The notes under the pieces were generated by a model. The model worked only from the letters and a program-made list of their open reading frames with translations. It was not told where the DNA came from and did not search any database. The translations under genes were made by a program, and so were the position numbers. From assembly GCA_033032865.1 (NCBI GenBank), contig JAWHQI010000004.1, positions 22,178,001 to 22,242,000 of the forward strand: a stretch of 64,000 nucleotides of DNA, in the 5' to 3' direction. Numbering within the stretch: the stretch's first letter is position 1; each line of letters starts with the position of its first letter. Source of the DNA: Dactylorhiza incarnata (lineage: Eukaryota > Streptophyta > Magnoliopsida > Asparagales > Orchidaceae). Positions 132 to 62,443 of the stretch are shown here, piece by piece.

Positions 132-452
132 GTCGCCTGGGCGACAGTGACTGTCGGAATTTTCCGACAGTGCTAAACTGCCGCTGGAGTGCCGTCGTGG
201 GTGGAGTCGTGGGCAGTTGGTGTAACCGTCGAGCTGTCGCCTGGGCGACATCGATGTCGGAATTTCCGACAGTGCAAAACTGCCGGTCGTGGGTGAAGAC
301 GTGGGCAGTTGTTGTAACCGCCGAGCTGTCGCCTGGGCGACATCGCTGTCGGAATTCCGACAGCGCAAAACTGTCTTTCGTCGATCTGCCGTGGAGGGAA
401 GTAGTTGTAACTTCTCTGCTGTCGCCTGGGCGACAGTGGCTGTCGGAATTTT
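132..452. repeat. Family H palindrome array, about 95-bp unit, four copies
   Basis: The perfect palindrome GTCGCCTGGGCGAC starts at 132, 236, 328 and 421, giving spacings of 104, 92 and 93 bp. Each copy is followed by a second inverted repeat, TGTCGGAATTTTCCGACA or a near variant. Between copies lies a conserved TGCAAAACTGCCG / GGGCAGTTG-TGTAACCG spacer. The short open frames that cross this region on both strands are by-products of the repeat. Confidence 0.85.
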
Positions 453-607
453 CCAACAGTGAAATTTTCCCACATTCAATTTTAGCTCTAGCAGCAATGT
501 GAACATCTCATACCTGTTATCTGCACACCATTAATGAAAATAGAATCAAATACAAAAGGGAGTTTGTTATTATCAAACCGGAGGAGTGCAAAACGCATGC
601 TCCAACA

Positions 608-1078
608 CATGTTTGACTCTATGTTCCACTCTGGGCTGTACTGAAGGTTACGATCTCGGTTCCACTGCAGCAATAGGTGTCGGGGCCACATCAGAAGTAT
701 GAGTAGTAGGTTGTGTAACACGTCCTGGCAGATTATTAATCATCTCAAAGACCGCTTCGGCGACTAATCTAATCATCTTAGCAGAAGTAGTGGTTGCTGG
801 TACCTCAGCAAACGCACTACTTTTAGCAGTGTTACGGGGTAAGACTGCCCCGTACCACTTCTAGTCACCAATAATCGTGTAATACACAATTTAGTGGTCG
901 AAAACATAGCAACAAATAAGCAAGGAACTCTCAGGTTCCACAAACAAGCATGTTTTTCATTCATTAGTGAACATTCTTATTAGTTTTTTATCGATTTGGG
1001 TGAACGCATATCACGTGCACACCACCCCTTAAAAGCAATTCAGCCTCAAATTCGCTAAACTACAGATCAACACCTATA
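608..1078 (-). pseudogene. Element E leader and gag N-terminal remnant
   Basis: This is the part of element E just inside its primer-binding site, cut at 607 by family H. On the minus strand between about 860 and 640 one frame is open and reads like the start of a Tekay-type gag, with SAKMIRLVAEAVFEMINNLP followed by a Thr/Pro-rich linker and then a stop. The start codon is not clear and no capsid domain is left. The assignment rests mainly on position between the E primer site and the H insertion; the protein match is weak. Confidence 0.4.
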
Positions 1079-1091
1079 GTCCGATACCAAA
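1079..1091 (-). promoter_or_regulatory. Primer-binding site of element E
   Basis: The minus strand reads TTTGGTATCGGAC immediately after the LTR. It matches the initiator-Met tRNA primer consensus TGGTATCAGAGC with a few changes. This sets the LTR end and the minus orientation. Confidence 0.65.
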
Positions 1092-1092
1092 T

Positions 1093-3141
1093 TGTTACAC
1101 CCGCCAGTACAAACAATATGACAATAGGTCCGACCGGGACCCCACACCATATTGAACACACTAGGTAGATGTTAATAAGCTGATAACAAAATAGAGACTA
1201 CACAAGAGTATCACAAGCGTGAGTGGAATCATTTAATAACATTACTTTAAAAATTGTGCATTATCCTAGGAATGAAACAATACAAAGTTATGGCCTTGAG
1301 GCCTTACATTTAAACAATGTATCTAACTCGAAGCATACTTCAACACGTTGGCCGGTAATATAAGGAAAGCAGTAAAACGGATGTTGGCCTTCAAGGGCCA
1401 ACACAGCATATGGCTTCAGCCCGCTACTTTCTGCTTGGCTCACCAGAACCTGCACCAACATCCAATAAAAGGTAAACGAGGGTCTTCTATGAGCTGACCA
1501 CAAACCGTGTAATGATCCCACCCCCTGCCATCTAGCCGACTCAAGGGCGTGTCACCACAAATCCTGCAAGTAATCCATACATGCAACATGTAATCAAATA
1601 AAGAAAGTGCAACTACACTACACGGGGTGAGGTTTCAAGCACAATCAATCTTCTAGGTTGAGAATCAAAGTAAAGGGAACCTAGGTATGCACATGATGTT
1701 GGTTGGGCTCACCCGGTAGATTCCCACAACCACCTAAGCAACTGCATGAGGCTAATGCCACATCAATCCACATCAAATCCACCCTAAGTAACACAAACTT
1801 ATGTGGGAAAAGAGATTTTTGGCCAGTCTAGATAAACACCTTCCACGACCTCTCCCAAGATCACACGGTGTACAAGAAGTTGGCACCTCTCATCGATCGG
1901 CATAGAAATGGGTTTGGTTCAGCTTTGCCCGTACTCTAGTCATCGTGATCTACTGCACTACGCGGGTACGACTTTGCCTCATCCTGTAAGGGTTTAACAC
2001 ATTCAAGTGCTATAAAAACGATGGCTACGCCTCCAATTCTTCCAAGAGGACTTAGGCTTCGCACACATAACAAAAGGATATACAAGACCGCTCCACTACA
2101 AAACACATGGTGAAGGTTTGCATTCAACCACATTCCAAGCAAGGGGCTTCCGTTAGGCTCTCCGAAAGATACCTAAATCTCAAGTCCCACATTACGATGC
2201 CATTTCTCATGGAGTCATTCTCCGGTACACATTCTAGGCTTAACCTAAATGCACATCACAATCAAGCATCACCGATCTGGGCTAACGGCCATGGGTAGGC
2301 TTCACACAAAATGCCTAAATCCATACATCTACCGGATTTCTACATCCAATATATGTCGGGGACGGACACAATCTACCCAGAGTTTGGAAGAACCATAGGA
2401 AGTCATACACTTCACTAATTAGTGAAAGAGACAACCTCAATATACATAAAAAAAGGAATGAAAGGACCAAACACGTCCTAAGACCGGGAGGAAGGATTGT
2501 TTCCCTTCCCGCTCTCTTCGGCGCCATGAATCCAAGATTTCAATCAGATGGAAGGAACCGCACCGAGCTGCTCTCCATGGATCAAGAAATGTCTCTCGAT
2601 TCGAAGCTCCGAAGCTCCGTCAATGGCGGAAGATGCCTTCTTCTTCTTCCTTGGGTTCTCAGCTTTCTCACGTTTGGAGAGAGGAGATGAAGGTAGAAAT
2701 AAACCTAAAGTTATCTTCCAAACATTCTTTAAAGGATTTTGAAATTATCCCAGCAGTCAGATTCATATTTCAGAAGGATCGAAATGATTTTAGACTTAGG
2801 ATTTGACGTCAAGCTCCGTCCAAATCGAAATAGGTAAAAACAACGCTATGTCTGCATTCGTCGAGTAATCACATTAATTCGTCGAGACATCAGAATTCGT
2901 CGAGTCATTACTATGAATCGTCGAGACCCCTCGAGACCATTCGACGATTTGTTGAAACACAGTGTTCGTCGATACTCACTAAACCCATTTGACGATTCCT
3001 CGATACCATTCGACAATTTGTAGAGACACTTCGGTAACACTTCAATTACTAAGTACAATTCGTCGAGACCACTTAAGTCCTTTCGACGAATCTGGGCAGT
3101 TCTTCCTTTCAGTCCCAATTTGGGAAAAGTGGGGTGTTACA
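1093..3141 (-). mobile_element. 5' LTR of element E (Ty3/gypsy, Tekay/Del-like)
   Basis: On the minus strand the LTR starts TGTAACACCC at 3141 and ends GGGTGTAACA at 1093. The ends form a 10-bp inverted repeat with one mismatch and are of Tekay type. Length is 2049 bp. Its repeat cluster (2855-3095) is near the 5' end of U3. The stretch around 2690-2650 resembles the leader of F near 55080-55110 (GGTTTTAT-rich, then TTCATCTCC), which suggests E and F are related families. Small open frames inside (for example 2548-2742) have no recognisable content. Confidence 0.75.
2855..3095. repeat. TTCGTCGAG / TTCGACGA repeat cluster in E LTR
   Basis: About ten copies of the word ATTCGTCGAG, or its reverse complement CTCGACGAAT and decayed variants, occur in 240 bp in both orientations. 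They lie in the first 300 bp of the LTR, that is, in U3. The same core is used by copia element B and by gypsy element F. Confidence 0.8.
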
Positions 3142-3689
3142 GATGACACGTGAATGTTACATTTGATTGTTAAATTTGGTCAATGAATACGCCTCACCCT
3201 GAGTGGGGAACATCACTGAAAGGGCTCATCCCCCTTGCATGTGGCTACGAAGTGAGTCTCGGGTGGATTTTGAATCATTGTATCTTTTCATGTTTTTGAA
3301 TTCTTGCTTATATTTTGTGTCACTAAAACATCTTACATGATTTATAAATGTTACACCAACACTCTTTTTATGATAGAAAAGCTCTTAGATCTCTCCATGA
3401 CACGACACGGTGTCCCTAGTTGGTAATCAATCGCTAGCCGTCGCTTCCCTACAATCATGCAAGACGGACAGGTGGAAAATGTCAGGACTTAACACTCATT
3501 TTCAATCCCCTTGGGCAGTCATTGGAGCCCGCTTGGACCCCCTCGCACGACTCCATATGACTTGAGCGGAGGTTATCCGGACTCCGACCCTCTCTGCAGG
3601 CACGTCTTACTTTCTCTTAACCACCGCACTAAGACCACTATAATCGCCCTCGTTCAGGTAACTCATGACTAACATACGTGGCAGGTGGA
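3142..3689. other. Unassigned stretch between E and C LTRs
   Basis: I see no convincing open frame, LTR ends, primer site or RNA gene here. The base composition is ordinary. It may be flanking sequence or the eroded edge of another element. Confidence 0.4.
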
Positions 3690-6004: not shown

Positions 6005-6576
6005 TGTGAAATTTTCCGTAGATCTTGGAGTGAGCAGGAATCGTACAACTTAAAGTTACAGCCAACAACCAGAAGTACGTGAAACAAAGCAATCTTTATT
6101 GATAACAACAAGAATCTTCATTACAGAGCGAGGTATACACGGCAAGACATGATTTCGCCAGTACACAAGGAAAACAGAAGAAACAAGCAAAAAAAAGATA
6201 ACTTGCGGTTAGCCGGATTAGGACCACCGAAACCACCTAACCGCCTGTCAGCTGCGACTTGCTGCCTTCACCTGAAACCGGCTATCATCTAAGTCCGCTC
6301 AAACAGAACAGAACGAACACGAACAACAGTAACTCGCGGCCTTCCAGAACTTGACCTCTGATCTCCCGACCTCCTGCACACTGTTAGCTGCTACCCGCAG
6401 AACTGCTACCATACCGACTAGAAGAATAGCCGCAAGTTGCAATCAGCACAACCCGCAAAACCTGCACAGATGAGATCTATCAGCAAGACCGCCCGGTTAT
6501 AAAGATGTTAACTGCATCTTCCAGAAATGAGTACTGCTTACAGTTGGTTCGAATAATGAACAATGCCAGGGGGTCC

Positions 6577-6584
6577 TATTTATA
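6577..6584 (-). promoter_or_regulatory. TATA box of A 3' LTR
   Basis: The minus strand reads CCTATAAATAGGACCC. It is conserved in the other LTR at 32938-32945. Confidence 0.7.
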
Positions 6585-6654
6585 GGCACGGGACAAGATC
6601 CAGTCACCGCCCATGTGATAGTGTCATCACCACAAAACCGCATGATTAGAGCAA

Positions 6655-7125
6655 CTCGCGCGGCTAGCACCTCTGCCATAAATGAGCATCGCAGGCTAGC
6701 TAGACAAGAATTCATCAGACCGCCAATTTGAAGACCGTGCTACTAAGGCAAGAATGCTAAGTCGCCACCATCATTATCCGCATAGAGAGCTCGTGTGGAC
6801 ACCAATAGAAACCGCGCGGCTAGACAGATATACAGCCCGCGCACAAACACCATGGGCCCTCCTAGCGGGAATCACTGAGAAGACAGGACAGTTAAGCCGA
6901 AGCAAATACTGCCGGTCAAGATAGAGAACAAGCCGCGCGATTAAATAAGTTTAACCGCACGGCAACATTACCAAATCGCCACGCAGTCCGAGAAGCCAGA
7001 CCGCGCGGCAACACCCCGGGAGCACCTGAGCAGAAGTGAAGAACCAGACTAGCTGAACTAGCTAGTCGCCAGAATAGACCGCGAGACCGCCCGATCTCAG
7101 CGGCTACTGCGGTTAGCCATTGCTA
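6655..7125. repeat. CCGCGCGG palindrome cluster in A LTR
   Basis: CGCGCGG or CCGCGCGG occurs at 6657, 6812, 6932 and 7001, with related CCCGCGCAC and CCGCGAGACCGCCC words nearby. The cluster lies upstream of the TATA box. The matching words in the right LTR (33010-33480) are mostly decayed at CpG. Confidence 0.75.
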
Positions 7126-7160
7126 GCCGCCCAGCACCCTTTACTTAACAATTCAAAATT

Positions 7161-7997
7161 TCAACACTCCCCCTTGAAGTGGGAAGTGGAAACTAGCCCA
7201 AGTAAACTCCGCAACCGAGTGAACGGCCCCTTCGCCAGCGCCTTTGTAAATATGTCAGCAACGTTGTCCAGACTCCAAACATGCTTGACCGAAAGAGACC
7301 CATCCAGCACCTTCTCACGAATGAAATGATGCTCAATCTCGAAATGTTTGGTCCTCGCGTGACACACTAGATTAGTAACCAGTTTGAGTGCACTCTCATT
7401 GTCACCGCAGAGCAGAGTCGGACCCCGAATCTCCTTATGGACGTCTCCCACCAACCTCCTAAGCCAGATGGCTTCTTGAGCTACCAAGGCTGAAGCCTTG
7501 TATTCCGCTTCCGTGGTAGAGACAGACCTGGAATCCTGGTTCTTGCTGCACCATGATATAGCCGTAGGGCCCACCATGAAGACGAATCCAGACGTCAACT
7601 TCCGATCATCCGAATCTCCCTCGTAATCAGCATCCATGTACCCATGCACCTCAAAGCCCGCATCCCTCCTGTATAGGAGACCCATATCCGAAGTCGCCTT
7701 GACATACTTCAAAATATTCTTGGCCGCAAGTAGATGAGGCATCCGTGGTTCCGCCATATAACGACTCACCCTGCCAACTGCATACGCAATGTTAGCCCTA
7801 GTGATCGTCAGATAAATCAAGCTCCCAACCAGAGCTCAGAACACAATCGGATCTTCCAGAATCCTCCCTTCATCCTTCCGAAGTTTCGTGGCCTTCTCCA
7901 GAGGTGTAGAAATACATTTCCCTTCCATCAGGCCAAATCGCTACACGATTCGCTCCGCATATCCAGCCTGGGACACCAGCACTCCACTTTCCTTCCT
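7161..7997 (-). pseudogene. pol: Element A RNase H and end of RT
   Basis: Copia RNase H degrades the RNA of the RNA-DNA hybrid during reverse transcription. The long open part (7820-7161, 219 codons) shows DADYEGD, the STTEAEYKA block, CGDNESALKL and RTKHFEIEHHFIRE, a full set of copia RNase H motifs. The stretch 7821-7997 joins it to the RT in the same frame but carries stops. The pol stop codon lies inside the LTR: the purine tract is read as FKGEC and the TGA is bases 4-6 of TGTTGA. Confidence 0.88.
7167..7183 (-). promoter_or_regulatory. Polypurine tract of element A
   Basis: The minus strand reads CACTTCAAGGGGGAG directly before the LTR start. This primes plus-strand DNA synthesis and is also coding sequence for the pol C-terminus. 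Confidence 0.8.
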
Positions 7998-9101
7998 CTA
8001 CACTTCGAGTCCAAGGAAATGGTGGAGTTCACCCAAGTCCTTCATCTCAAATCTGATAGATAGCTCAGCCTGAAGTTTTGCTACCTCCTCCTTCGAATTC
8101 CCAATCACGATCATATCGTCGACGTAAAGCAATACGATGACTTGAAGCTCCCCGTTCTTCTTGACAAACAAGCTTGAGTCAGAGTCTGAAGCACCGAATC
8201 CACAGAATAGGAGATATTCTGTGATCTTCCCGTACCACGCCCTCAGCGCTTGCTGCAACCCATACAGGGCCTTCTTAAGCTTACAGACATAGTCTGGAAA
8301 ATCCTCAGATATGAAGCCTGGCGGCTGGATCATGAAGATATCCTTGTCAATCTTGCCATACAAGAAAGCATTCTTTACGTCGAGGTGCCAAATCTCCCAC
8401 CCACAAAATTCCGCCAACGCAATAATGAACAGCACTGAAGTCATCTTCGCCACCGGACTAAATGTCTCTTCATAATCTTCACCGTATTGCTGCGAGAATC
8501 CACGAGCCACAAGGCGAGCCTTGTATCATTCGATACTCCCGTCTACCTTTTTCTTGAGCTTATAGACCCATTTGCATGTCACAAGGGTGATACTCTTGGG
8601 CCTGGGCACCAAAGACCAGGTCTCATTCTTCTCAAGAGCTACCATCTCTTCTTTCATAGCCGAATCCCACTGTTTCACGCCTTTGGCCTTTTCAAAGCTC
8701 ACTGGTTCCCGCTCATCCAGGGGACCAGTGAAGAAACACGAGACAAAGCTCACCATGTTTCCTCCTGTATAGCGATCAGGGGCAATGATCGTTCGCTTCG
8801 ATCTCCTCAACACCTTCCCCTGACTTGCATTATCCTCAGCTGTTTCATCCCTAGCTCCCCTTCCAGTCGTACTAGGAGCATCGGTCCCCCTGCTTCCTGA
8901 TCCAGAAGCCTCCGTCTCAGAACAAGAAATGGATGGACCACCTGTTGACAAAGGCAGCTCCACCTGATGATTTTCCACAGCTCTCTCCGGCTCCTCCACC
9001 CTGCTTTCTGGTAACTCAACACTAGAACTTCCCTTGTACGGCGTAACCTTGTCAAACACGATGTCGCGAGATACAACAAATCTCCATGTATCCGGGTCCA
9101 T
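7998..9101 (-). pseudogene. pol: Element A reverse transcriptase
   Basis: The open stretch 8510-7998 holds the copia RT core: ETFSPVAKMTS, the LDVKNAFLYG catalytic Asp block, KKALYGLQQALRAWY and YVDDM near 8120-8130. The upstream stretch 9101-8526 holds the integrase-RT linker (Ser/Thr/Glu-rich) and the RT entry motif ending KWVYKLKKKVDGSIE. The two are in one frame, separated by a TGA at 8524-8526 that fits CGA decaying to TGA. Confidence 0.87.
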
Positions 9102-11308: not shown

Positions 11309-11367
11309 TGTGAAATTTTCCATAGATCTGGGAGTGAGCAGGAATCGTACAACTTAAAGTTACAGCC
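11309..11367 (-). mobile_element. 5' LTR of A, inner fragment
   Basis: These 59 bp match 6005-6063 with two or three differences and then stop at CAGCC, where element B is inserted. The LTR resumes at 32425. Confidence 0.92.
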
Positions 11368-12890
11368 TGTTGGAACAACCCTATTACTGATTTGGGCTAG
11401 GATTACTATGTGTTGACTAGGATCAAGTTGACCCCCATTGTATAGTCTAAGGGTAAAAGTTATAGGCTGATTAGATAGCTAGAACTTAGAATTTCTCTAA
11501 GTTTCTGCGTTCGACAAATTCTATACTGGGTTCGACGAACTGCTCTCTGCGTTCGACGAAGGGCTGCTCCAGTCTCAGCATCTCAGCGGTCGACTATCTC
11601 CAGTTCTCAGCGGCTCAGCAGCTCAGCGGTCGACGAATTCTTCAGTTCGACGAACTCTATATTGAGATCGACGAACTCCAGCCTGAGTTCGACGAATCTC
11701 TATCAGATGTTCAGTTCGACGAACTCTTCCTTCAGGTCGACGAAATCTTATCTCAGATCGACGAATTTTCTCTCAGATTGCTCAGATCAGTCATTATATT
11801 TCTCTGAACTCAGTTCATCTATCACATTCAGTTCTATTCTTCATTTGGAGTTATTCTTCCAGATAAGACAAGTTTTATCCTTCCTTTAATTTTATTCTCT
11901 TTCCAATTCCATCTCTCAAGATAAAACAACAGTTTGGCTTGTTGGAAAAGGATATCATTTATTATGGAAAAGGAAAGGAATTAAGTTTGGCTGAATCAAT
12001 GGAAGTTCCAAGAAAAGGTTTATTGCAGATTATTCTATTCCTATTCAGAGAGATTTTGAAATTCAAATCAGTCGTCTTCTAAAAAGAAAATAGAATACCA
12101 AGAAGAAGGCAGACATACACAGAGATAGAAAATATCAGTGCTTCAGTCTAGAGAAAATATTCAAGAAGGAAAAAAGAAAAGTTCATCTTCCTCAAGTAGC
12201 ATCTCATTATCTGAGAACATCTTCAAGATCATTCTCTCATTCTTTCTGCTGCAGGTTTCAAATCTTCTATAGAGCAACAATAATCTGAGGAACATCTGTC
12301 TCTAAGATTCATCTGCTTATCAAGGAAGATATTTTCATTTCAAGAGAAAGCTCCATCCTCAAGCTGTCAAGAACTTCAATCAGACAGGGGGTGCTTTACA
12401 CCATCATCCACTAGAGTCTTCTCTCAGATTGTTGCCAGAGAAGAACTTCTTAAAATCTTTTATTCCATCTTGTACAGGGTTCTTACTGCCTTCAAAAGTA
12501 AACCTTTTGGTGACAGGGCACCTGAACAAAAACCTGTGGTTTGGTTAGAGTACCTGATCAAAAGCTCTTTGGTGTGTAGACACCTGATCAAAAATCCCTT
12601 GGTGCTAGGGCACCTTATCAAAAACCTAGTGGATCCTACCAAGTGTGGTAGAAGAGTAGACGTACCCAAATTTATTGGGGAACTACTATAAAATCCTTGT
12701 GTCTTTGTGTTTGTGAATTTTCTGTTATGCTGTGCTGTGCTGATTTGTTTTTATTTAGTTTTTTATAAATCACTCAATATACACATATATATATATCACT
12801 AATTTAATTCCGCTATAAAATTAAGGGAAAAGTTTTAATACTCTATTAACCCCCCTCTAGAGTAACATTAAGATCTAACCTCCACTTTCA
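11368..12890 (+). mobile_element. 5' LTR of element B
   Basis: It starts TGTTGGAACAACCC and ends CTCCACTTTCA, followed two bases later by the primer site. The TTCGACGAA cluster is in the first 400 bp. I found no clear TATA box, so the position of R is open. Confidence 0.93.
11508..11770. repeat. TTCGACGAA cluster in B 5' LTR
   Basis: TTCGACGAA, GTCGACGAA or GATCGACGAA occurs about ten times, together with four CAGCGG words. The corresponding cluster in the 3' LTR is 31018-31295. Confidence 0.85.
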
Positions 12891-12991: not shown

Positions 12992-15048
12992 ATGGCACAA
13001 AACAAAGAATATTCTAGCACAAGACCTCCTATGTGAAATCTCAGTAAGTTTGCACTATGGAAGGCAAGGATTAGGTTATACATGAATTCTATTGATGAGG
13101 AAATCTTCAATGTGATTTTTACAGGACCTCCATCTCCAACAGCAACAACAAGTGCAGAAGCACCAGCAAATAACAATGTTGTTCCACCACCTGAGTGGAC
13201 AGAGGCACAAAAAAAGTAAAGAAGTGCAGATGCAAAAGCAATGAACATTCTAGCACAAACAATGTCTAATGACATTTTCCAGAAAGTGGTAGAATGCACC
13301 TCTGCAAGAGAAATATAAATCTCACTCAACAACATGGTTGAAGGATCAGCTGATGAAAGAAAGGATAGAAGATCCCACCTCATTTCTCAATATGAGAATT
13401 TCAAAAAGGGAGAATCTGAAAGTGTAGCTGATATGTATAACTGGCTCATTCTCATAATTAATGAGCTGAAATCTTTGGACAAAGTTATCTCCATCACTGA
13501 GATAAATGATAAGATCCTAATGTGCTTCCCAAGCACATGGGACTCTAGGACTGTCCAATCAAGGAAGCCAGAAGCCTTAATGAGATCTCAACTGAGAACT
13601 TGTTAGGCAAACTAAAGTCCTACGAGCAGCTTATCAAAACCAGAGAAGCTGAACAATCTACTTCATCTCCAGCATCCAAGAAGGAGAGAAGCATAGCTTT
13701 TCAAGCTGAAGAAGAAGAAAAGGCTCCAAGAGATGAGGAGTTCATGAGCCTTCTAGCAAAAAGGTTCTATAAGATGGCCAAGAAGGATTTCAAAAAGAAG
13801 GACTCCAGATGAAGGGAAAAGCCAAGGTATGATAAGTCAAATCCTAAAGAAATTATCTGTTATGTTTGCAGGAAACCTGGACATATTCTGCCATAATATC
13901 TAGAGAATCAGAAGAAAGAAAAGAGAAAAGAGAAAGAGGACAAGAAGCACTCCAGCAAGTCTTCCTCCCATAAGCACAAACACAAGGGAAGAGGATTTGT
14001 AGCAGAAACTTGGAGTGAAACTGAATCAGAATCTTCATCAAGTTCTTCTGATGATGAAGAAGAATCAAAAGAAAAGGACCAATGCTTGATGGCCATTTAT
14101 GACTCAAGCTATGAGTCGGATCTTACATCTTCATCCAGCTCTTCTGATGATGAGGATAATGAAGAGGAAAAGAATTTCTGCATGATGGCTATCAATGCCT
14201 CAACAAACAACTCAGATGAAGAAGAATCAGGATCTGAAGCTGACAATGACACTGATCAAGTAATTTCTAATTTTGATTTCAATTCAGTTGAATTCAAAGA
14301 TGAATTCAAAGTTCTTTGCTTAGACTTAATAAAATTTGAGAAAGAAATAATCTCACTCAGAAATAAGCTAGCTGAATTAAGTGAAGAAAATGCTAATCTT
14401 AAGAAAGATTTGGCTGCCTCTAGAGAACAAATAATTCTCATTGAGAATAAACTTTCTGAGGCCAAGAAATTTGAAGAATCCCTAAATGGGAGAAGCATCA
14501 AACTAATGGACATTACAAGCACAGTAAATGCCAGATTAAATGGCAAACTAGGCTTGGGTGCATCATCAAGTGAGCCACCTCTTATTAAGAAGAACATACT
14601 CTCTACACCTATAAAATTCATTTCTGCTAAAAGCAAAGAGGTTGTAGATGAAAATAAAAACATTTCAAGCAAGGCTGTATAGAATAAGGGAATTCAACAG
14701 AATTCGTCGAACGGAGCTCGACGAAATCAGACGAATTCGTCGAACGGAGATCGACGAACTCTGAAGACAGACTTTCTGTATAGTCATTATTCGAACAACG
14801 CTCCACGAAAGCACATTCCTTCATCGAACGACGATCGACGAACTCAGGCCAGTTCGTCGAACAGGAGATATACAGAAAATTTGAAGAATTCTTTTTCTTC
14901 ACATACTCACAATCCTTACACTGAATGGTTAATTCCTCCATGGAGATATCATCCAAATGGTTATAAGGACCAGCCTGAAATGTCTTTTATTTCAGAGTTT
15001 TGTGGTAATATAAAAGTACCCAAGGTAGTCTGGGTCAAAAACAACTAG
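12992..15048 (+). pseudogene. gag: Element B gag
   Basis: The first ATG is at 12992 (MAQNKEYSSTRP). The capsid region includes ADERKDRRSHLISQYENFKK (from 13352), a frameshift lies near 13565-13600, and a zinc knuckle CYVCRKPGHI lies near 13858 whose last Cys is lost next to a TAA. An acidic Ser/Asp/Glu stretch and a coiled coil (about 14330-14490) follow. The tail (14700-14865) is written over the family TTCGTCGAA repeats and ends KVVWVKNN then TAG at 15046. At least five in-frame stops are present. Confidence 0.88.
14700..14865. repeat. TTCGTCGAACGGAG array in B gag-protease linker
   Basis: Words TTCGTCGAACGGAG and ATCGACGAACT alternate in opposite orientation, giving hairpin-capable pairs. 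This is the B LTR word inside coding sequence, and it reads as NSSNGxRR-type peptide repeats. Confidence 0.8.
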
Positions 15049-17629: not shown

Positions 17630-17666
17630 TGAAAGTGCGCAGTTAACCTCACTAGAATTCTCTAGA

Positions 17667-17676
17667 GGGGGGGGGG
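17667..17676. repeat. Ten-base G run in B2 3' LTR
   Basis: This is a pure G homopolymer in the TCTAGAG-(G)n-TGAATAGAG context. The same tract has 21 G in the sister LTR (25725-25745). Confidence 0.9.
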
Positions 17677-18359
17677 TGAATAGAGATTTAAAAGTACTTT
17701 GTGCAAAGTTAACAAATATATATATATATATATATGTGTAATAATCTCTGAGTTAAGCTTCCCACACACACCAACAAGAATTAAGTAAAAAAAGAAAGAA
17801 ATAGCAAAATGAAAATCACAGCACAACACAAAGAAATATAGTGGTTCCCCAAACTTTGGGTAGTCCACTCTTCTACTCCCTTGGTAGGAATTCACTATCT
17901 TGTACTGTGTCTTTTGATAAGGAGACTCTTAGAACCAGACTGAGTCTTTTGTTAAGGAGACTCTTAGAACCAGTACAACTGAACTTTTTGAAGAGAGATT
18001 CTAAAAACTCTTTTACACTGTTTAAAAATGAAATGAAGATAAGAAGAAGAAGTAGAAGAAGTAATTGAAACAAGAAAGAATCTTCTTCCTAGCAAGAAGA
18101 TTAGAAGCACAAGAAATAGTGAATGAAATCTCTCTTCTATAGTGAGAAGGAGATTATAGGCCTTTTCTCTTTCAAAGAGAGCTATCAGAGATTGCAGCAG
18201 TATGGCTTCAGAAAGAGAGGATGAAGAAGGCTTGTTGTTTGCTTCAGCACACTATCACTTCTCTCTCCTTTTTCTCACTTTTCTCTTGGGAGCTTTTCCT
18301 CTATTTCAACTGGATGGAGTGGATCACATCTCTCTTCTGTTCTCTGCCGATTTCCATCT

Positions 18360-18367
18360 TATTTATA
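18360..18367 (-). promoter_or_regulatory. TATA box of B2 3' LTR
   Basis: The minus strand reads GAGCTATAAATAAG. It is conserved at 26421-26428 in the other LTR. Confidence 0.7.
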
Positions 18368-18645
18368 GCTCTGTTTACTCAAAGAATACTATAGGAGAAT
18401 AATCAATTAGCAGACAGAGAAATTGTAAGAGAGAAAAGATTCCATAATCAATATTTCTGTAGAAGGAAAGAGATTATTCTGATTTCAAATAATATCCATA
18501 ATAAACTTAATCAATTTAGCCAAGAATCATTTAGAAGGAAAGACTGATTCAAAACGGCTAGAAAAGAATAATATCATTCCATAAATTTAAGATCTACAGA
18601 TTGAAGGAAAGAGATCTGGCGTGTTTTTGAATTTGACATAGAAAT

Positions 18646-18880
18646 TGACGCACGTCGATTACTATTCGACGGAAGCATCGATTTCAGACTGGCTGGACAT
18701 CGAGAGGAGAATATGGAAGGTGCGTCGACTAAGATATGTCGACTTCACTAGATACGTCGACTAGAAGTCAGAGTTACGTCGACATAGGTTACGTCGAACT
18801 CTGTTTAGAGCTACATCGACTCATTCTGAGAGGAACGTCGACTATACTTCGACGTTGCGTCTAATACTATTCGACGCATA
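18646..18880. repeat. TGCGTCGA / ACGTCGAC cluster in B2 3' LTR
   Basis: About twelve copies of TACGTCGAC, TGCGTCGA, TTCGACGCA or variants lie about 280-520 bp upstream of the TATA box. The sister cluster is at 26708-26940. Confidence 0.85.
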
Positions 18881-18960
18881 TTTTACTTAGACTAATTTTT
18901 CATTCATAGAATTTATATTCTACTCATTTTTAGGGGTTAAGATAAATCATTTCCCCAACA

Positions 18961-21067: not shown

Positions 21068-21268
21068 GTCAACGCATGCGTCGATATGGATTCTACGCTC
21101 CGTCGAATTTTTGTCAGCCTAGTGACTTGTCAACGTGTTCGCATATTTGCGTCGATAACAAGTCGACGGTACGTCGAGAAGGGATGGACGTATCTTTGTC
21201 TGTTAAGAAATCAATGCTAGCGTTGAGTTCTTTTTGACGGTGCGTTGATAGGTAATCGACGTATCTTC
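21068..21268. repeat. TGCGTCGA cluster in B2 pol-ORF3 spacer
   Basis: About ten copies of TGCGTCGA, AGTCGACG, ACGTCGAG or decayed forms occur in 200 bp between the pol stop and ORF3. This is the same word as in the B2 LTR. Confidence 0.8.

Positions 21269-23024: not shown

Positions 23025-23069
<45 letters not shown>
23025..23069. repeat. 45-base G homopolymer replacing B2 integrase core
   Basis: Forty-five uninterrupted G stand between the pre-integrase domain (ending [11 protein letters not shown]) and the RT linker (starting [12 protein letters not shown]). The DDE core, about 0.9-1 kb in the sister element B, is absent. Confidence 0.9.
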
Positions 23070-25687: not shown

Positions 25688-25724
25688 TGAAAGTGCACAG
25701 TTAACCTCACTAGAATTCTCTGGA

Positions 25725-26940: not shown

Positions 26941-27021
26941 ATTTTACTTAGACTAATTTTTCATTCTTATAATTTATATTCTACTCATTTTTAGGGGTTA
27001 AGATAAATCATTTCCCCAACA

Positions 27022-38854: not shown

Positions 38855-39300
38855 GTTACGCCTGTGACCTAGGGGCACGACAAGTGTCATGACCGTGTCC
38901 CGCCTTCAGCTCCCGGAAGACCTATACATGTCAGATTAAAATTACACGCCCATGTCACAGGCATGATAGGGGTGTGACCCTCAGGTCACGAGCGTGACTC
39001 GCCTAACAAGCCTTCAATACAAGCAGTTTCCAGATCACGCCTTCAGCTCATTTAATATTACACGCTCTCGGTCAAGGGCATGACCGAGGCCGAGACCCTA
39101 TCAATAACCTCCACATTCAGTAGTGATCGAGCCATTCCACTGTCTTTTCCAGATCTAGCTAGACACGCCCATGGACACGCCCATGTCCAAGGGCGTGTAA
39201 CTTTGTGCTAAGTCAATTTGGCAGTTTTTCTCCCCAACGTTCCTTGGTTTTCAAGACAGCGGTTACACACCTTACACGCCCTTGGTCATGGGCGTGAGCA
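38855..39300. repeat. CACGCCC / GGGCGTG / GTCACG cluster in D LTR
   Basis: It includes the perfect inverted repeat GTCACGAGCGTGAC (38985-38998), CTAGGT...ACCTAG around 38866, and several ACACGCCCATG or ATGGGCGTG words in both orientations. Confidence 0.75.
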
Positions 39301-39326: not shown

Positions 39327-39333
39327 TATAAAA
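39327..39333 (+). promoter_or_regulatory. TATA box of D LTR
   Basis: CCTATAAAAGCTAGC lies 30 bp after the last GGGCGTG word. Confidence 0.7.
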
Positions 39334-42457: not shown

Positions 42458-42939
42458 TGTTGCGAACGACTAAAGGCTCCGGTAGACCGGACTAAATTGA
42501 ACCGTCTTAGCCCGGGAGCGCTCGAGCGTGCAAACAGTCACAGAAAAAAAAAATCTAACAAGGCAAATTTGTTAACATGGAAAACCGGTCAACTGGGTGA
42601 AAAACCACGCGGTCGGGTCCGTGACGACCAAAACTTCCAATATTTGTTGAATGTTGTACATGGATGATTTGAAGAACTCGAGGGTGACAGACTGCCTCTC
42701 GTTATAACTGTTGAAAGAGAGGTGCTTGAAGGGTGACAAGCCACCACTCACGGAGCTAAGCCTTTTGTCTGCAGCGGGGAATGTTGTGCTCTGAGCGCTC
42801 TAGAGATTTTGATTGCTTCTTGAAGGTTGGATCGATGTGCTCTGTTTGTCTTTGTCTCAGTGGCTTGCCTCCTGCTACGCGAGAGGAATTTGGAGTATTT
42901 GTCTTGACGGTGGCGGTCATGTTTGTTCATGAGCGCACA

Positions 42940-44440
42940 GAGACGTGCTTGCTCTGGAGCGCACGGAGGCGTGCTTGTTCTTGAGCATACGAAGGCGCAC
43001 TTGGAGAGGAGTGTACAAGGTCGCACTTAGAGCAGTGCACACGAAGGCACGCTAGGAGAGGCTTTGAGAGTAGAGCGCGCAGAGGCGCGCTTTGAGCAGA
43101 GCGCACGGAGGCGCAGTTGGAGTGAAGCGAACGGAGGCGCGTTTGGAGAGGCTTTGAGAGTGGAGCGCGCGGAGGCGTGCTTGGAGCGGCTTTAAGAGCG
43201 GAGGGCACGGAGGCGCACGGAGGCGGACTTGGAGCGGAGCACACATAGGCGTGCTTGGAGCAGCTTTATGAGCGGAGCGTGCGAAGCGGCGCTTAGAGCG
43301 GATTTGAGAGCGGAGAGCGGGGAGGCACGCTTGGAGTGGAGCGCACAGAGGAGCACTTGGAGAAGAGCGTAAGGAGGCGCGCTTGGAGCGGAGCGCACAG
43401 AGGCGTGCTTGGTGCGGAGCGCACAAAGGCGCTCTTAGAACAGAGTGCATGGAGGAGCACTTGTACCGGCTTTGAGAGCGGAGTGCGCTGAGGTGCGCTT
43501 GGAGAGGATTTGAGAGAGGAGCGTGCAAAGGCACGCTTGGAGTGGAGCACACAGAGGAGCGCTTGGAGTGGAGCGCACGAAGGCGCTCTTGGAGTGGAGC
43601 ACACAGAGGCACGCTTGGAGCGGAGTGCACATATACACGCTTGGAGCGGAGCGCACGGAGGCGCGCTTGGAGCAGCTTTAAGAGTGGAGCACGTGGAGGC
43701 GCACTTGGAGCTGAGCGCACGGATGTGTGCTTGGAGCAGAGCGCACGGAGGCGCGCTTGGAGAGGATTTGACAGTAGAGCGTGCGGAGGCGCAGTTAGAG
43801 CGGAGCGTACAGAGGTGCTCTCAGAGCTGACAAAGAAGAGGCATGCGCTAGAGCGCACACAGAAGAGACACGTGCAAGAGTGCTCAAGGAAGAGGCACAC
43901 GCGGGAGCGCGCAAGGAAGGGGCGCGCGCAGGAGTGCGCAAGGAAGAGGCGCGCGTGGGAGCATGAAAGGAAGCGGCGCATGCGGGAACGAGCAGGGGAG
44001 AGGCATGGGCAAGGGAGAGGTGCGTGTGGGAGCGCACAAGGCAGAGGCTCGCGTGGGAGCACGCAAGGGAGTGGCGCATGCGAGAGCGCATAAGGAGGAG
44101 GTGCGCGCAAAGCAGAGGTATGCGTGGGAGCTCCCAAGGTAGAGGCGCACGTGGGAGCGCATAAGGCAGAGGCACGCGTGGGAGTGCGCAAGGCAGAGGC
44201 GCGCATGGGAGCGTGCATGGGAGCGCGCAAGGGAGAGGTGCGTGCAGAAGCGTGCAAGGGAGTGGCGCATGTAGAAACATGCAAGGAAGCGGCGCGCATG
44301 AGAGCACGCAAGGAAGAGGAGCGCGCCTGAGAGCGCAAGGCAGAGGCATGCGCGGGAGCGCGCAAGTGCGAGGTGCTCGCAAGAGCGCACAAGGAAGAGG
44401 CGTGCGTGATAGGGAACAAGGAAGAGGCAATAGAGAGAGG
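42940..44440. repeat. GC-rich minisatellite, units about 24-30 bp
   Basis: The first half repeats GGAGCGGAGCGCACGGAGGC followed by GCGCTT. The second half (about 43820-44430) repeats GGAAGAGGCGCGCGCGGGAG-type units. Several frames stay open on both strands for 180-455 codons because of the repeat; their translations are low-complexity Ala/Ser/Pro/Leu/Arg or Arg/Glu/Ala strings with no domain. Confidence 0.85.
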
Positions 44441-44524
44441 AAATCGTAGGAGGAGGAGAGAGAAAATCCGTAGGAGGATTTTCTTGGGCCGAAAGGATCC
44501 TTCCTACTGATGGGGAATGAGGTC

Positions 44525-44583: not shown

Positions 44584-44856
44584 TATAATGCACCTGATTT
44601 TCGTTAATTATTTTGCATAGCCGCTTTGACGTAATTTTGGCGTAAGGGCGTTACGTCAGCTCGTCAGGTTTAGTTTTGGGCCTTAGCTTAGTTAAACTAT
44701 GTAATTTAGATCGAGCATGCGAGATTTCACGTCGTTTCAAGCTATAGAGAAGATTTTACGTAGTTATTAAGATCATAGCATCGGGAGGCTTTATCCTGAG
44801 TTTGGCTCGTCATAATTGAATTCTGACTTCGCCGTTTGATTTGTAGCGCCGAATTT
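44584..44856 (+). mobile_element. 5' LTR of F, first fragment
   Basis: This is the first 273 bp of the F LTR, ending at the AATTT target duplication (44852-44856) of element G. It contains no repeats or ORF. Confidence 0.65.
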
Positions 44857-45751
44857 TGATGCGCTATTTCGGCACTGCTAATTAGCAGGCACGAAATGCG
44901 ATACGACGGCAGTGTACCGGTCGCTCAAGTAATAAAATTGGGAGGAACTCCCCGAATATCAATCTCAAAGGACCGCAAGTTGGGTAGTACGATTTGCTCT
45001 AAACAGGAAATCAGTTAAAAGGAGTAATAAGTAACAACGGGGGGTTTGATTTGGTTTCCTACGCTATTGCAGAATGAAGAAAGATGCGGGTCAAAACTCC
45101 GCTTCGCAAGGCGAGATGGGTGCAACGGCGAAGATGTCGTGCTTCGGAAGGCGCATGGACGGGAAATCACTATGACGGTTGAGGGTCGCACACACCTCTT
45201 CTCAAAACATCACCACTAGCAATTTCTAGTGGCTTCACCCACAACGAATCACAGAAAATCACTAGGAACAAAGGGGCTATTCATGCCTCCACAACATCAG
45301 TGCATATGAAGGAAAGCAAAACTCCTTAAGATTAGCTTAACACGTGTTCAATCAACACAAAAATGAAGTATAAGCATTCAAGGTTAGAGAGGACCACAAA
45401 GAAGAAGTCACGGCTTGGGTTCACGGCCGGAATGAGAGGTTGTCGGGCTCTCTCCGGACTCGGCCCTCAGATGGTGAGCTTGGCTCTAAGGAGGCTGTCA
45501 CCGCTCCTACGATCTTCAGCGCTTCCTTGGTCTCCTTGGTGAGGAATTCTTGAACTAATGTTGGATGAAGCTTCCTAATGCTCCCGGATGGAAGGATGGA
45601 GGTGGAAATCACCGGAAATGGCCTTGATGGTGGAAGAGATGAAGGGGAAGCCTTCAGCCCTCAAGAGCAGCAGGAAGGAAGAGATTTCCCGCTCTCTGAA
45701 TCGCTCCCGGTCGTTCTCTATCGCTCCTCCGGTGACTGCCTCAATTCCTGC

Positions 45752-45759
45752 TTTTTATA
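45752..45759 (-). promoter_or_regulatory. TATA box of G 3' LTR
   Basis: The minus strand reads CCTATAAAAAGCAGG. The copy in the other LTR is at 54079-54086. Confidence 0.65.
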
Positions 45760-45779
45760 GGAAACAGGATGAAAATTGG

Positions 45780-46095
45780 TCACGCACAGTCGAACGCATG
45801 ATCGTGCGCAGACCGTGCGATATTAACGGATAAAATATGGCTTGGATAAGACGCTGCGCCGCCCGTGCTATTTGTTCACGCACGACGAACGCCGCCCGTG
45901 CGTTCAGACGCATGGGTAAAATCCGATGCTCTGAAATCACGAAGATACAGGTCGACCGTGCGTTTTACTCACGTACGGGCGAATTCGCCCGTGCGTTAAA
46001 ACGCACGAGTAAACTTCGACGCTCCATTTTATTCCCAGATACAAACGCACGACTGCATAGACCGTGCGTCAAGGAAACGCACGACCGTGCGATAT
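45780..46095. repeat. CGCACG / CGTGCG palindrome cluster in G 3' LTR
   Basis: About fifteen CGTGCG or CGCACG words lie directly upstream of TATA, with an 18-bp perfect palindrome centred on GAATTC near 45984. The sister cluster is at 54105-54425. Confidence 0.85.
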
Positions 46096-46350
46096 GCACA
46101 GAAATTACTTTTGGGGGAAAACGGGACGATCAGGTCACATGCAAACAAGATATACCAGCTGGGAATACACGTCCAACACAGAAATACATCAAAGAAGGGA
46201 AGGGGAGCACAATGTGCTTACCCCCAATAACGAGGAATGCAATTGAACACCGAAATGGGCTTAATGGTGCACCTAGCATGGAATAGTATATATAAATGAA
46301 AACGTGCCTAAAATATGGTGCAAACACTAGAATATCAGCCAAAATGAGTC

Positions 46351-46353
<3 letters not shown>

Positions 46354-46401
<48 letters not shown>
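46354..46401. repeat. TA microsatellite in G 3' LTR
   Basis: It has about 23 TA units here and only about five in the other LTR (54682-54692), so the change came after insertion. Confidence 0.85.
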
Positions 46402-53177: not shown

Positions 53178-53183
53178 AAAACT

Positions 53184-54707
53184 TGATGCGCTATTTCAGC
53201 ACTGCTAATTAGCAGGCATGAAATGCGATATGACGGCAGTGCACCAGTCGCTCAAGTAATAAAATAGGGAGGAACTCCCCGAATATCGTTTTCAAAGGAC
53301 CGCAAGTTGGGTAGTACGATTTGCTCTAAACAGGAAATCAGTTAAAAGGAGTAATAAGTAACAACGGGGGGTTTGATTTGGTTTCCTACGCTATTGCAGA
53401 ATGAAGAAAGATGCGGGTCAAAACTCCGCTTCGCAAGGCGAGATGGGTGCAACGGCCGCGATGTCGTGCTTCGGAAGGCGCCTGGAGGGGAAATCACTAT
53501 GACAGTTGAGGGTCGCACACACCTCTTCTCAAAACATCACCACTAGCAATTGCTAGTGGCTTCACCCACAACGAATCACAGAAAATCACTAGGAACAAAG
53601 GGGCTATTCATGCCACCACAACATCAGTGCATATGAAGGAAAGCAAAACTCCTTAAGATTAGCTTAACACGTGTTCATACAACACAAAAATGAAGTATAA
53701 GCATTCAAGGTTAGAGAGGACCACAAAGAAAAAGTCACGGCTTGGGTTCACGGCCGGAATGAGAGGTTGTCGGGCTCTCTCCAGACTCGGCCCTCAGATG
53801 GTGAGCTTGGCTCGAAGGAGGCTGTCACCGCTCCTACGATCTTCAGCGCTTACTTGGTCTCTTTAGTGAGGAATGCTTGAGCTAATGGTGGATGAAGCTT
53901 CGTAATGCTCCCGGATGGAAGGATGGAGGTGGAAATCACCGAAAATGGACTTGATGGTGGAGGAGATGAAGGGGAAGCCTTCAACCCTCAAGAGCAGCGG
54001 GAAGGAAGAGATTTCCCGCTCTCTGAATCGCTCCTGGTCGTTCTCTATCGCTCCTCCGTTGACTGCCTCGATTCCTGCTTTTTATAGGAAACAGGCTGAA
54101 AATTGGTCACGCACAGTCGAACGCACGATCGTGCACAGACCGTACGATATTAACGGATAAAATATGGCTTGGAGAAGACGCTGTGCCGCCCGTGCGATTT
54201 GTTCACGCACGACCAACGCCGCCCGTGCGTTCAGACGCACGGGTAAAATCTGACGCTCTGAAATCACGAAGATACAGGTCGACCGTGCGTTCTACTCACG
54301 CACGGGCGAATTCGCCCGTGCGTTAAAACACACGAGTAAACTCCGACGCTCCATTTTCTTCCTAGACACAAACGCACGACCGCACTGACCGTGCGTCAAG
54401 GAAACGCACGACCGTGCGATATGCACAAAAATTACTTTTGGCGGAAAACGGGACGATCAGGTCACCTGCAAACAAGATATACCAGCTGGGAATACACGTC
54501 CAGCACAGAAATACATCAAAGAAGGGAAGGGGAGCACAATGTGCTTACCCCCAACAACGAGGAATGCAATTGCACACCGAAATGGGCTTAATGGTGCACC
54601 TAGCATGGAATAGTATATATAAATGAAAACGTGCCTAAAATGTGGTGCAAACACTAGAATATCAGCCCAAATGAGTCCAAAAATATATATATAAATGGGA
54701 CTCATCA
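53184..54707 (-). mobile_element. 5' LTR of G
   Basis: It is collinear with 44857-46414 and ends CTCATCA before AATTT. It contains TATA at 54079-54086 and the palindrome cluster at 54105-54425. Confidence 0.94.
54105..54425. repeat. CGCACG / CGTGCG palindrome cluster in G 5' LTR
   Basis: It includes a perfect 26-bp palindrome at 54298-54323 whose half-site is ACGCACGGGCGAA. The sister LTR has one C-to-T change in it. Confidence 0.88.
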
Positions 54708-54834: not shown

Positions 54835-55022
54835 CTGCGTTCGATGAACTCGAGGTGAGCTGCGTTTGACGAACTCGAGGTGAGCTGCATTCAATAAACT
54901 CGAGGTGAGCTGCGTTCGACGAACTCGAGGTGAGCTGCTTTCGACAAATTGAAGGTGAGCTGCGTTCGACGAACTGGAGGCTGCGTTTGACGAACTGGAG
55001 GCTGCGTTCGACAAATTTCCTT
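54835..55022 (+). repeat. 25-bp tandem array with TTCGACGAA in F LTR
   Basis: CTGCGTTCGACGAAC or a variant starts at 54835, 54860, 54885, 54910, 54935, 54960, 54981 and 55002. The spacing is 25 bp five times and then 21 bp twice. Most units contain CTCGAGGTGAG. The array ends about 45 bp before TATA. Confidence 0.9.
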
Positions 55023-55065
55023 GAATTCGAAGAGAAATTCTGGTTCTCGGCGAGCAATTTAAGCT

Positions 55066-55075
55066 ATATATATAA
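55066..55075 (+). promoter_or_regulatory. TATA box of F LTR
   Basis: GCTATATATATAATAATAAG directly follows the 25-bp array. Confidence 0.65.
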
Positions 55076-55520: not shown

Positions 55521-55545
55521 CCCCCCCCCCCCCCCCCCCCCCCCC
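55521..55545. repeat. 25-base C homopolymer in F LTR
   Basis: Twenty-five uninterrupted C lie between ATCTCGAA and TTGATCC, just before the CTCGAG array. Confidence 0.9.
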
Positions 55546-55565
55546 TTGATCCTTGCTTTCGAATT

Positions 55566-55827
55566 CTCGAGAAAACATAGTCCCTACCTTGGGATTTCTC
55601 GAGAAATCATAATCTCTGCTTGGGATTTCTCGAGAAATGATTGACCCTGCCCTTGGGATTTCTCGAGAAAGCATAGTCCCTGCCCTTTGGATTTCTCGAG
55701 AAATCATAATCTCTATTTGGGATTTCTCGAGATATGTTTGACCCTGTCCTTGGATTTCTCGAGAAGCTCCTACTACCTGCCTTTAATTCTCGAGAAGTCA
55801 TGTTCTCTGTCTTTCTTTTCTCTCGAG
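55566..55827 (+). repeat. CTCGAG array with 31-33 bp period
   Basis: CTCGAG occurs at 55566, 55598, 55629, 55662, 55695, 55726, 55758, 55789 and 55822. Spacings are 31-33 bp throughout. Most copies sit in GGGATTTCTCGAGAAATCAT-type units. It is downstream of TATA, so it is transcribed. Confidence 0.92.
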
Positions 55828-61009: not shown

Positions 61010-61369
61010 TATGTGGCAGATTATGAAGTTGATATCCTGTATCATCCGGGTAAGGCTAATGTAGTGGTCGATGCCCTGAGTAGAAAGACCGTGCAAATCT
61101 TCAATATTTCCGTGCAGTCCTTGGTAGGTATTGTATCCCCGCGTTGGATAATATTCAGGCAAAGATCTGTAGTGAAGCGCAGAACTCTAGTCTTTCCAAT
61201 CATCCTGGTTCCACAAAAATGTACAAAGACCTGAAGCAGAACATTTGGTGGTCAGGTATGAAGAATGATATAACCAGATATGTTTCTGAATGTTTAACTT
61301 GTCAGCACGTGAAGGCGGATCAGAAGAGGCCTGGAGGTAAGTTGAACCCGTTGGATGTGTTGGATCGTG
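61010..61369 (+). pseudogene. pol: F integrase N-terminus, cut by H
   Basis: YHPGKANVVVDALSRK ends RNase H. After a shift the HHCC finger appears: MYKDLKQNIWWSGMKNDI then CLTCQHVKADQKRPGG. The protein stops at LNPLDVLD, where the family H LTR starts. Confidence 0.85.
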
Positions 61370-61382
61370 TGACGCCCTTAGA

Positions 61383-61401
61383 GGGGGGGGGGGGGGGGGG
61401 G
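61383..61401. repeat. 19-base G run in H LTR
   Basis: It has the same U5 position and the same GGTGAATA continuation as the runs in B2. Confidence 0.9.
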
Positions 61402-62148
61402 TGAATAAGGGTGTGTTTAAATTATAATTTTTTAACTTAAGAATTTTTAAACAAATTTTACTTTTCTAAAAATTACTTAAAAAAAATTTCAAACCAATGT
61501 AATTTTTAAATTAATTCAAACACAAATTTCTAAGTTAAAGATTAAGCAACCAAATTTGCAATTAAAGAAAAAGTCATAATTTTTGTAATCATGAAATTCA
61601 CATACAATAAAAATGATCTTAACAATGCTTAAGATCAATGCACAAATATGATAATAAACTTTTAACAATTTGAGTTTACCAATCCTTCTCCCAAGGATCG
61701 GAAGGCTATCACTTGTCTCTCCCTAGACCAAGCCCAAGCCTATCCTCTAGATCTTCCCAAGATCTAGACGTAGCACACAAGGCCACGATTTCCTACCAAG
61801 CCACGCAAGGACTTGGACGCTCCACGTAAGGAAGCGATTTTCCACTAAGTCACGCAAGGACTTAGACGTCACGCACAAGGAGACGATTTCCCTACCAATA
61901 CAAAGTGAAATGTATATAAATGAAAATACAAAATCAAATGAAGAACTCCCTAGAAATTTAGATCCCTGAAAGGAAGGTTGAAGCCTCGAGATGATCGTTG
62001 ATGTAGAAGCGCGTCCGATCTCGTCTTCAATTTCAAACCTTCTAAGCACAAATGGGAGTTGATGAGGTTTTGGAGCTCTCTGGTTCTTATGCACTCAGGA
62101 AAGGACTTAGAATTTTAAAAGCTTGGAATGCACGAACAAAACGAACCA

Positions 62149-62156
62149 ATTTATAG
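62149..62156 (-). promoter_or_regulatory. TATA box of second H LTR
   Basis: The minus strand reads TATAAATT. The remaining palindrome units follow at 62164-62300. Confidence 0.6.
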
Positions 62157-62443
62157 TTTTCACTATCGCCTGGGCGACATCGCTGTCGGAATTGCGACAG
62201 CGCCAAAATACTGTTCATCGTGCTGTCGTGCGGGCTGCTGCTGTAACTTCTGTCCTATCCCCTGGGCGACAGTAGATGTCGGAATTCTGACATCGAAATT
62301 CTCCATATAGTTAAATTGAGCTCCAATCAGAATTGTGAACATCTTATACCTGTTACCTGCATACCATCAATAAAAATAGAATCAAATACAAACGGGATTT
62401 TGTTATTATCAAACCGGAAGAGTGCGGAATTCATGCTCCAACA

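Follow-up and report, generated by a model that had tools for sequence, protein, structure and literature searches.

Repeated, partly symmetric boxes upstream of the TATA box are a feature of the Tnt1 U3 and of other long terminal repeat (LTR) enhancers, where they belong to single families and serve regulation by host factors. The closest described system is that of the Sireviruses, for which Bousios et al. (2010; PMC2829016) described repeated motifs (RM boxes) as Sirevirus-specific: a high-copy, dyad-symmetric, element-specific word builds a CpG island in the LTR immediately 5' of TATA, further copies lie upstream of the envelope-like gene, and a CGG-CCG core is present in all but one of 13 elements. 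Neither the motifs nor the envelope-like gene has an agreed function (PMC2829016). A 2016 palindrome study (known through PMC10760457 and PMC5311732) reported rapidly evolving palindrome clusters in the LTR regulatory region and interpreted them through small RNAs. Among DNA transposons, the VANC proteins of VANDAL elements provide sequence-specific anti-silencing, with both binding and demethylation shown (PMC5735166, PMC10398659). Here, we analyze 64,000 nucleotides of the orchid Dactylorhiza incarnata (the window; C2629:22178001-22242000 of a 3.27-Gb assembly), which self-comparison resolves into nested LTR retrotransposons, and describe arrays of family-specific, mostly CpG-bearing words in the U3 of both copia and gypsy families, together with the recurrence of the same words in front of ORF3, the third gene of Sirevirus-type elements.

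The window families are designated A to H, and self-comparison delimits four LTR pairs, as follows.

6058-7166 and 32419-33527: LTR pair of A
11368-12890 and 30877-32419: LTR pair of B
17630-18960 and 25688-27021: LTR pair of B2
44856-46369 and 53183-54696: LTR pair of G

Perfect 5-bp target duplications flank B, B2, and G; B is nested in an LTR of A (target duplication CAGCC; window 11350-11372 and 32415-32424), and B2 is nested in B (GTTTG). By Pfam matches, A, the B-type elements, and S9 are copia and G, F, S3, and S11 are gypsy, with reverse transcriptase (RT) motifs also used for the window elements; S1, D, and T1 were assigned as gypsy-like through primer binding site or LTR similarity (D through its primer binding site). 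Most copia families here are Sireviruses by their polypurine tract, which in that genus is AGGGGGAG, placed 10 bp before the 3' LTR and with several copies in the linker: AGGGGGAGAT abuts the LTR in B2, S9, and H, whereas B carries the variant AGGGGGAAAT in place of the Sirevirus tract AGGGGGAG, of which five copies lie in an H-family element on C1 (the only element in which linker copies were counted). An exact 16-base Sirevirus-type junction between this tract and the LTR has 40,716 matches in the genome, against 0 for the reversed control.

To these families we added the LTR pairs found in 200 kb plus 50 kb taken from arbitrary places, which yielded 15 LTRs. Candidate pairs S10, S12, S14, T5, and T6 were excluded before the count for lack of clean ends, S6 and T4 were retained though their target duplications are not established, and E, F, and H entered the scan as incomplete LTRs whose ends are inferred. 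Some members are related, both within the arbitrary-place set (S1/S3 and S8/T3/T4) and to window families (S6/B and T1/G). For each LTR or LTR part, the CpG-bearing 6-mer most frequent within 300 bp was scored against 200 dinucleotide shuffles, and 6-mers built from only one or two letters were skipped. Such a 6-mer reaches 6 to 12 copies within 300 bp, more than in any of the 200 shuffles, in 21 of the 24 LTRs or LTR parts. The exceptions are A (165/200 shuffles equally good), H2 (7/200), and S2 (1/200); the letter filter dropped CCGCGC of A, and without it A reaches 4 copies, equal to its own shuffle maximum. An earlier reading of the window, made from the sequence alone, had claimed family-specific clusters of CpG palindromes in U3, usually just upstream of TATA, and the words it named are present where it placed them, most weakly in A. 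Of the 15 arbitrary-place LTRs, used to avoid a selection of families, 14 (some of them mutually related) also exceed every shuffle. In 1,300-bp internal segments of 13 elements, six copies are reached in 7 of 56 cases, five of which represent the element's own word and the other two of which lie in S11. The layout is common to copia and gypsy, as the sequence-only reading held, with seven clusters in gypsy or gypsy-like elements (G, T1, S1, S3, S11, D, and F). The U3 words of the window and their TATA boxes are the following.

11532-11766, plus strand: U3 cluster of the B 5' LTR (Sirevirus-type copia), 9 copies of TCGACGAA, five of eight spacings 21 bp; TTCGACGAA has 5 copies
31020-31292, plus strand: word cluster of the B 3' LTR
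18653-18876, minus strand: U3 cluster of B2 (Sirevirus-type), 9 copies of CGTCGA; TACGTCGAC and TGCGTCGA have only 2 each
18362-18367, minus strand: TATA box of B2, 291 bp past the last word
132-452, minus strand: double word GTCGCCTGGGCGAC + TGTCGGAATTTCCGACA of H (Sirevirus-type); GTCGCCTGGGCGAC has 4 copies (132, 236, 328, 421) and a TG center, making it an imperfect palindrome
116-121, minus strand: TATA box of H, 24 bp past the last word
38945-39296, plus strand: U3 words GGGCGTG/CACGCC of D (gypsy-like), with 6 copies of GGGCGTG and only 2 of GTCACG
39327-39332, plus strand: TATA box of D, 36 bp past the last word
45803-46091, minus strand: U3 cluster of G (gypsy), 11 copies of CGCACG
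45754-45759, minus strand: TATA box of G, 49 bp past the last word
54122-54411, minus strand: cluster copy in the right-hand LTR of G, 12 copies of CGCACG
54865-55015, plus strand: cluster of F (gypsy), 6 copies of TTYGACRAA and 2 of exact TTCGACGAA; CTGCGTTCGA is common to F, B, and T4
55065-55070, plus strand: TATA box of F, 58 bp past the last word
55564-55808, plus strand: second array of F, palindrome TTTCTCGAGAAA, 3' of TATA
2857-3090, minus strand: cluster of E, 6 copies of TTCGTCGA (strand and element end inferred; no TATA found)
6658-7010, minus strand: CCGCGC words of A (copia), 7 with overlaps counted and not above shuffles; CCGCGCGG has only 2 exact copies

Family C was seen as TRF tandems only. 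With hand-chosen words, a TATA-type hexamer follows the last word within 330 bp in 15 of 17 LTRs (within 60 bp in 7 of those 15), so that the position claimed for the clusters largely stands, as does the lack of a nearby TATA in B and E, which T2 shares; for T1, the script returned none owing to a stray later word, and by eye the box lies 49 bp past the word at 580. Four observations nevertheless weigh against a uniform rule of CpG palindromes placed before TATA. Perfect CpG palindromes (arms of at least 5) outnumber those of every one of 50 shuffles in no more than 3 of 19 U3 stretches; the word of S2, TTGACC, is free of CpG (18 copies in the first 900 bp, where shuffles average 0.7); the S13 cluster sits 3 kb inside its 4.5-kb LTR; and the strongest array of F, that of TTTCTCGAGAAA, lies downstream of the F TATA box. 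As palindromes exceed shuffles in so few stretches, it is safer to speak of a repeated, CpG-bearing word that is often dyad-symmetric; of the earlier description, the repetition holds, and strict palindromy is weaker than it was described to be. The S2 LTR is itself a giant of 5.7 kb (C2629:5011267-5016955; L010), and its remaining 4.8 kb holds 5 TTGACC.

A family's U3 word is repeated upstream of ORF3 in B, S5, S6, S9, and H, and across all six elements in which an ORF3 domain was detected (these five and L028) a word cluster or double word precedes the gene. In B, the relevant features are as follows.

27663-27780, plus strand: internal word cluster upstream of ORF3
27875-27881, plus strand: TATA-like box TATATAA, between this cluster and ORF3
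27997-29616, plus strand: first part of ORF3, before an in-frame stop, with a PF20167-type N-terminal domain (30.0 bits; Pfam cutoff, 45)
14703-14862, plus strand: internal cluster of dyads TTCGTCGA N7 TCGACGAA, after the putative gag frame 13897-14679

B2 has two internal clusters of its own.

23805-23966, minus strand: cluster within the open frame taken as gag
21079-21262, minus strand: cluster downstream of pol, with no ORF3 domain detected behind it

The words of B and B2 thus occupy three sites (U3, near the end of the putative gag, and behind pol), and those of S5 and S9 occupy U3 and the stretch before ORF3. Both zones hold an element's own word only and never that of its sibling, while the short word of S5 has three further occurrences elsewhere. 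S6, whose U3 carries the B word, has the B word before ORF3 as well, followed by TTTATAATC; a word had been expected at this site, but the expectation was not recorded beforehand. ORF3 of L028, an element whose LTR was not identified, is preceded by ATATCGTCGTAA words and a TTATAAATAG box. The H-family element at C1:21408-32482 (L001-L008) is a young Sirevirus with LTRs 99.4% identical and a PF20167-type ORF3 in antisense; H double words lie upstream of the ORF3 ATG on that strand, and one lies behind ORF3. Two further properties of the gene were observed: a single in-frame stop, reflecting either read-through or decay, splits ORF3 of B (window 29617-29619) and S5 (element 8839-8841), S9 being fully open, and a splice-junction-like CAG-GT occurs just 5' of ORF3 (window ~27972, S5 ~6982, S9 ~7074, and S6).

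The predicted structure of the ORF3 N-terminal domain, modeled for S9, a relative of the B ORF3, retrieves one solved structure above all others, that of the transposon anti-silencing protein VANC21 on its target DNA, at an E value that is not significant. With the full-length model, the matches listed by VIA-align are coiled coils with few exceptions. Comparison of profiles against the PDB gave no sequence link between ORF3 and VANC21, and PF20167 is the only Pfam match at an E value of <0.01 in the ORF3 N-terminal domains, DUF1985 and DUF287 not being found by sequence. In the protein database, the S9 query returned no homologues, the S5 query returned one (P0001), and P0001 returned only itself.

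Word and protein diverge in step in the two pairs compared. S5 and S9 align in pol, in U5, and over the initial 240 bp of U3, with no alignment through the cluster zone or the part after it; they use different words, and RT identity is 91% over 164 residues, whereas that of the ORF3 domains is 40%. B and S6 share a word; here identity is 88% over 185 residues for RT and 72% over a 146-residue piece for ORF3. Word identity and ORF3 divergence thus appear to run together in the direction that co-evolution predicts, over these two pairs only.

We propose that each cluster is a homotypic array of predicted sites for a sequence-specific DNA-binding regulator, which would control the LTR promoter from a position shortly before TATA. 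For Sirevirus-type elements, the candidate is the product of their own ORF3, in a role like that of VANC in VANDAL transposons: by binding the family word in U3 and again in the promoter of its own gene, it would oppose methylation and so permit transcription. That the arrays are binding sites of this kind, read in Sireviruses by a VANC-like ORF3 protein, is a reading we consider credible, if somewhat short of probable. Its fuller form is more tentative, namely that ORF3, long labeled envelope-like, is a VANC-like anti-silencing factor reading a family-private CpG word at the LTR and at its own promoter, that word and protein change together, and that other families, gypsy included, copy words to exploit another family's factor. 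Families with no detected ORF3 but with another's word would then borrow that factor, as F and T4 may, which carry the B/S6 word; the reader of the gypsy words could be a host or an element protein.

The sharing of words favors an alternative in which the arrays are enhancers built solely of host transcription factor sites, each family having captured a different host factor and ORF3 being unrelated. The word GTTCGACGAA, with CTGCGTTCGA flanks, is common to copia B, gypsy F, and T4, and GTTCGACGAA also occurs in copia S6. T4 (LTR at C11:3017670-3018360, L030:7670-8360), a relative of S8, combines two words in one LTR, one of S8 type (AGCGC..GGCGCTA) and one of B type (TTCGACGAA). Among the gypsy elements examined, none yielded an ORF3, and the 18 TTGACC boxes of S2 resemble the W-box, the WRKY core. 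Transcription factor sites are, moreover, informative in plant LTRs (PMC11656987). Alone, this explanation, which we regard as a serious but doubtful contender, leaves unexplained why the word before ORF3 is the element's own U3 word in B, S5, S6, S9, and H, and it leaves the VANC21 fold match unexplained as well.

The words themselves are conserved. Between G and T1, 65 of 66 word positions are identical, compared with 211 of 287 others. CpGs are kept at 21 of 22 word sites versus 11 of 21 others in this pair, at 13 of 18 versus 2 of 7 between B and S6, and at 7 of 9 versus 14 of 25 between S8 and T4, with the proviso that a position counted as part of a word when one member of the pair had the exact word, a choice that favors intact copies in that member. 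After insertion, the picture differs: over 13 elements, differences between the paired LTRs fall on 95 of 1,033 CpG sites inside the cluster zone and 62 of 691 outside it, and on 165 of 5,343 and 275 of 9,733 non-CpG positions, respectively (the cluster zone being the 500 bp before TATA, or 450 bp for B, which has none, and a CpG site being a CG in either LTR). Cluster-zone CpGs therefore change about three times faster than other letters, as CpGs elsewhere do. Protection of cluster CpGs from methylation, one form of the methylation handling suggested by the sequence-only reading, is rejected by this nearly equal decay. Because cluster CpGs decay like others after insertion and yet word CpGs persist in the long term, word CpGs are kept by selection, not protection. 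In keeping with this, B and B2 are nearly CpG-free outside their words: in B, 96 of 109 CpGs fall in 8 of 59 200-bp segments that hold or adjoin word clusters, and B2, which is in one piece, looks similar. The same reading's promoter module is supported by the position before TATA, the conservation of words between G and T1, and the same word before ORF3.

CpG density could itself be the signal, CpG-island-like and read by methyl-CpG or demethylation factors, with the letters irrelevant. The observed/expected CpG ratio before TATA is 0.81 to 1.55 in 13 of 13 elements, against 0.0 to 0.15 in the rest of the LTR in B, B2, and S4. The contrast is not general, however, since the rest of the LTR has ratios of 0.79 to 1.06 in 8 of 13 elements, and with all letters of the words conserved rather than CpG alone, the S2 word lacking CpG, and decay no lower in the cluster zone, we judge this very unlikely.

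We hold it to be unlikely, too, that the words act as hairpins in the RNA 3' end (U3), with a part in silencing or the RNA life cycle. Such a role was proposed for maize Sireviruses, where Copia LTRs have structures and small RNAs are in excess at palindrome clusters (PMC10760457). Eight of 16 clusters fold at z of ≤-3 (30 shuffles each), but B, S4, S6, and T4 have no clear excess (z, -0.2 to -1.4), A and S8 have a weak one, and exact letters are conserved, not pairing alone. A hairpin zone as a general explanation, also raised by the sequence-only reading, is thus not supported. Finally, certain arrays, such as those of S7 (at 21/35 bp) and F (at 21/25 bp), are genuine tandems, as would be expected of a functionless by-product of tandem duplication; this account is highly improbable given words kept while spacers diverge, the same word at two or three separate sites, and the same pre-TATA position in most LTRs.

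Other features were noted. At window 42931-44478, a GC-rich tandem array (GAGCGCACGGAGGCGCGCTTG type) accompanies a 455-amino-acid antisense open frame with no Pfam match, and gypsy S11 has a GAGCGC array with an antisense ORF weakly matching PF04195, a layout like that published for Retand (PMC11963269). Homopolymers of 45 G (window 23025-23069) and 25 C (55521-55545) are perhaps artifacts of assembly or reverse transcription.

Set against the RM boxes, the U3 cluster upstream of TATA recurs in H, B2, S4, S5, S6, and S9 (in B without a clear TATA), as does the word before ORF3 in B, S5, S6, S9, and H, if ORF3 is taken as the envelope-like gene. The CGG-CCG core, by contrast, is present only in TGTCGGAATTTCCGACA of H and is missing from the main words of B, B2, S4, S5, S6, and S9; restriction to Sireviruses fails, with clusters in G, T1, S1, S3, S11, D, and F; B and B2 add a third cluster near the gag end that is absent from the accessible text of PMC2829016; and word identity goes along with ORF3 divergence in the two pairs compared. 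The 2016 palindrome study likewise places its clusters in the LTR regulatory region and, as far as it is available through later papers, differs in its small-RNA interpretation. The idea of repeat arrays as LTR enhancers is cited in PMC10760457, where maize Ty3 elements are described as generally without an obvious structure peak, which does not exclude word clusters.

Likeness to VANC/VANDAL, as those systems are described in the accessible sources, lies in brief, family-specific motifs that form tandems in more than one noncoding zone (one B2 cluster being inside an open frame) and in a fast-evolving, element-encoded protein, with a possible resemblance of the predicted ORF3 domain to the VANC21 fold at an E value that is not significant. 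The differences are that VANDALs are Mu-like DNA transposons, whereas these elements are retrotransposons with LTRs, primer binding sites, polypurine tracts, and RT; that the VANC21 motif, YAGTATTAY, has no CpG; and that no homology was found at the sequence level, the function of ORF3 here being predicted from sequence and model. In sunflower, Athila elements have an additional 3' ORF with partial PF20167 (Transposase_32) similarity and a nuclear localization signal (PMC11728184), comparable to the 3' PF20167-like ORF here, and the accessible text mentions neither a target word nor a connection to VANC for that ORF. PMC12844716 leaves open an influence of the extra ORFs of LTR retrotransposons on the methylation of these elements. 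Among the papers listed by our literature searches, which included few subscription papers, we found no earlier VANC link for such ORFs (including, in their accessible text, PMC11728184, PMC12844716, and PMC13317346) and no earlier description of such word clusters in gypsy elements. The sequence-only reading had not known the layout as a general rule; the layout itself was already published for Sireviruses in 2010 (PMC2829016), its extension to gypsy families departs from that paper, and the proposed link between ORF3 and a VANC-like protein offers a testable mechanism. A VANC-like fold and a word common to two promoters would connect the RM motifs with the envelope-like gene and, if true, anti-silencing by an element's own protein would no longer be confined to one group of DNA transposons but would include an abundant class of plant retrotransposons, while the same layout in gypsy lineages would point to a wider rule of plant LTR promoters, which would need a reader.

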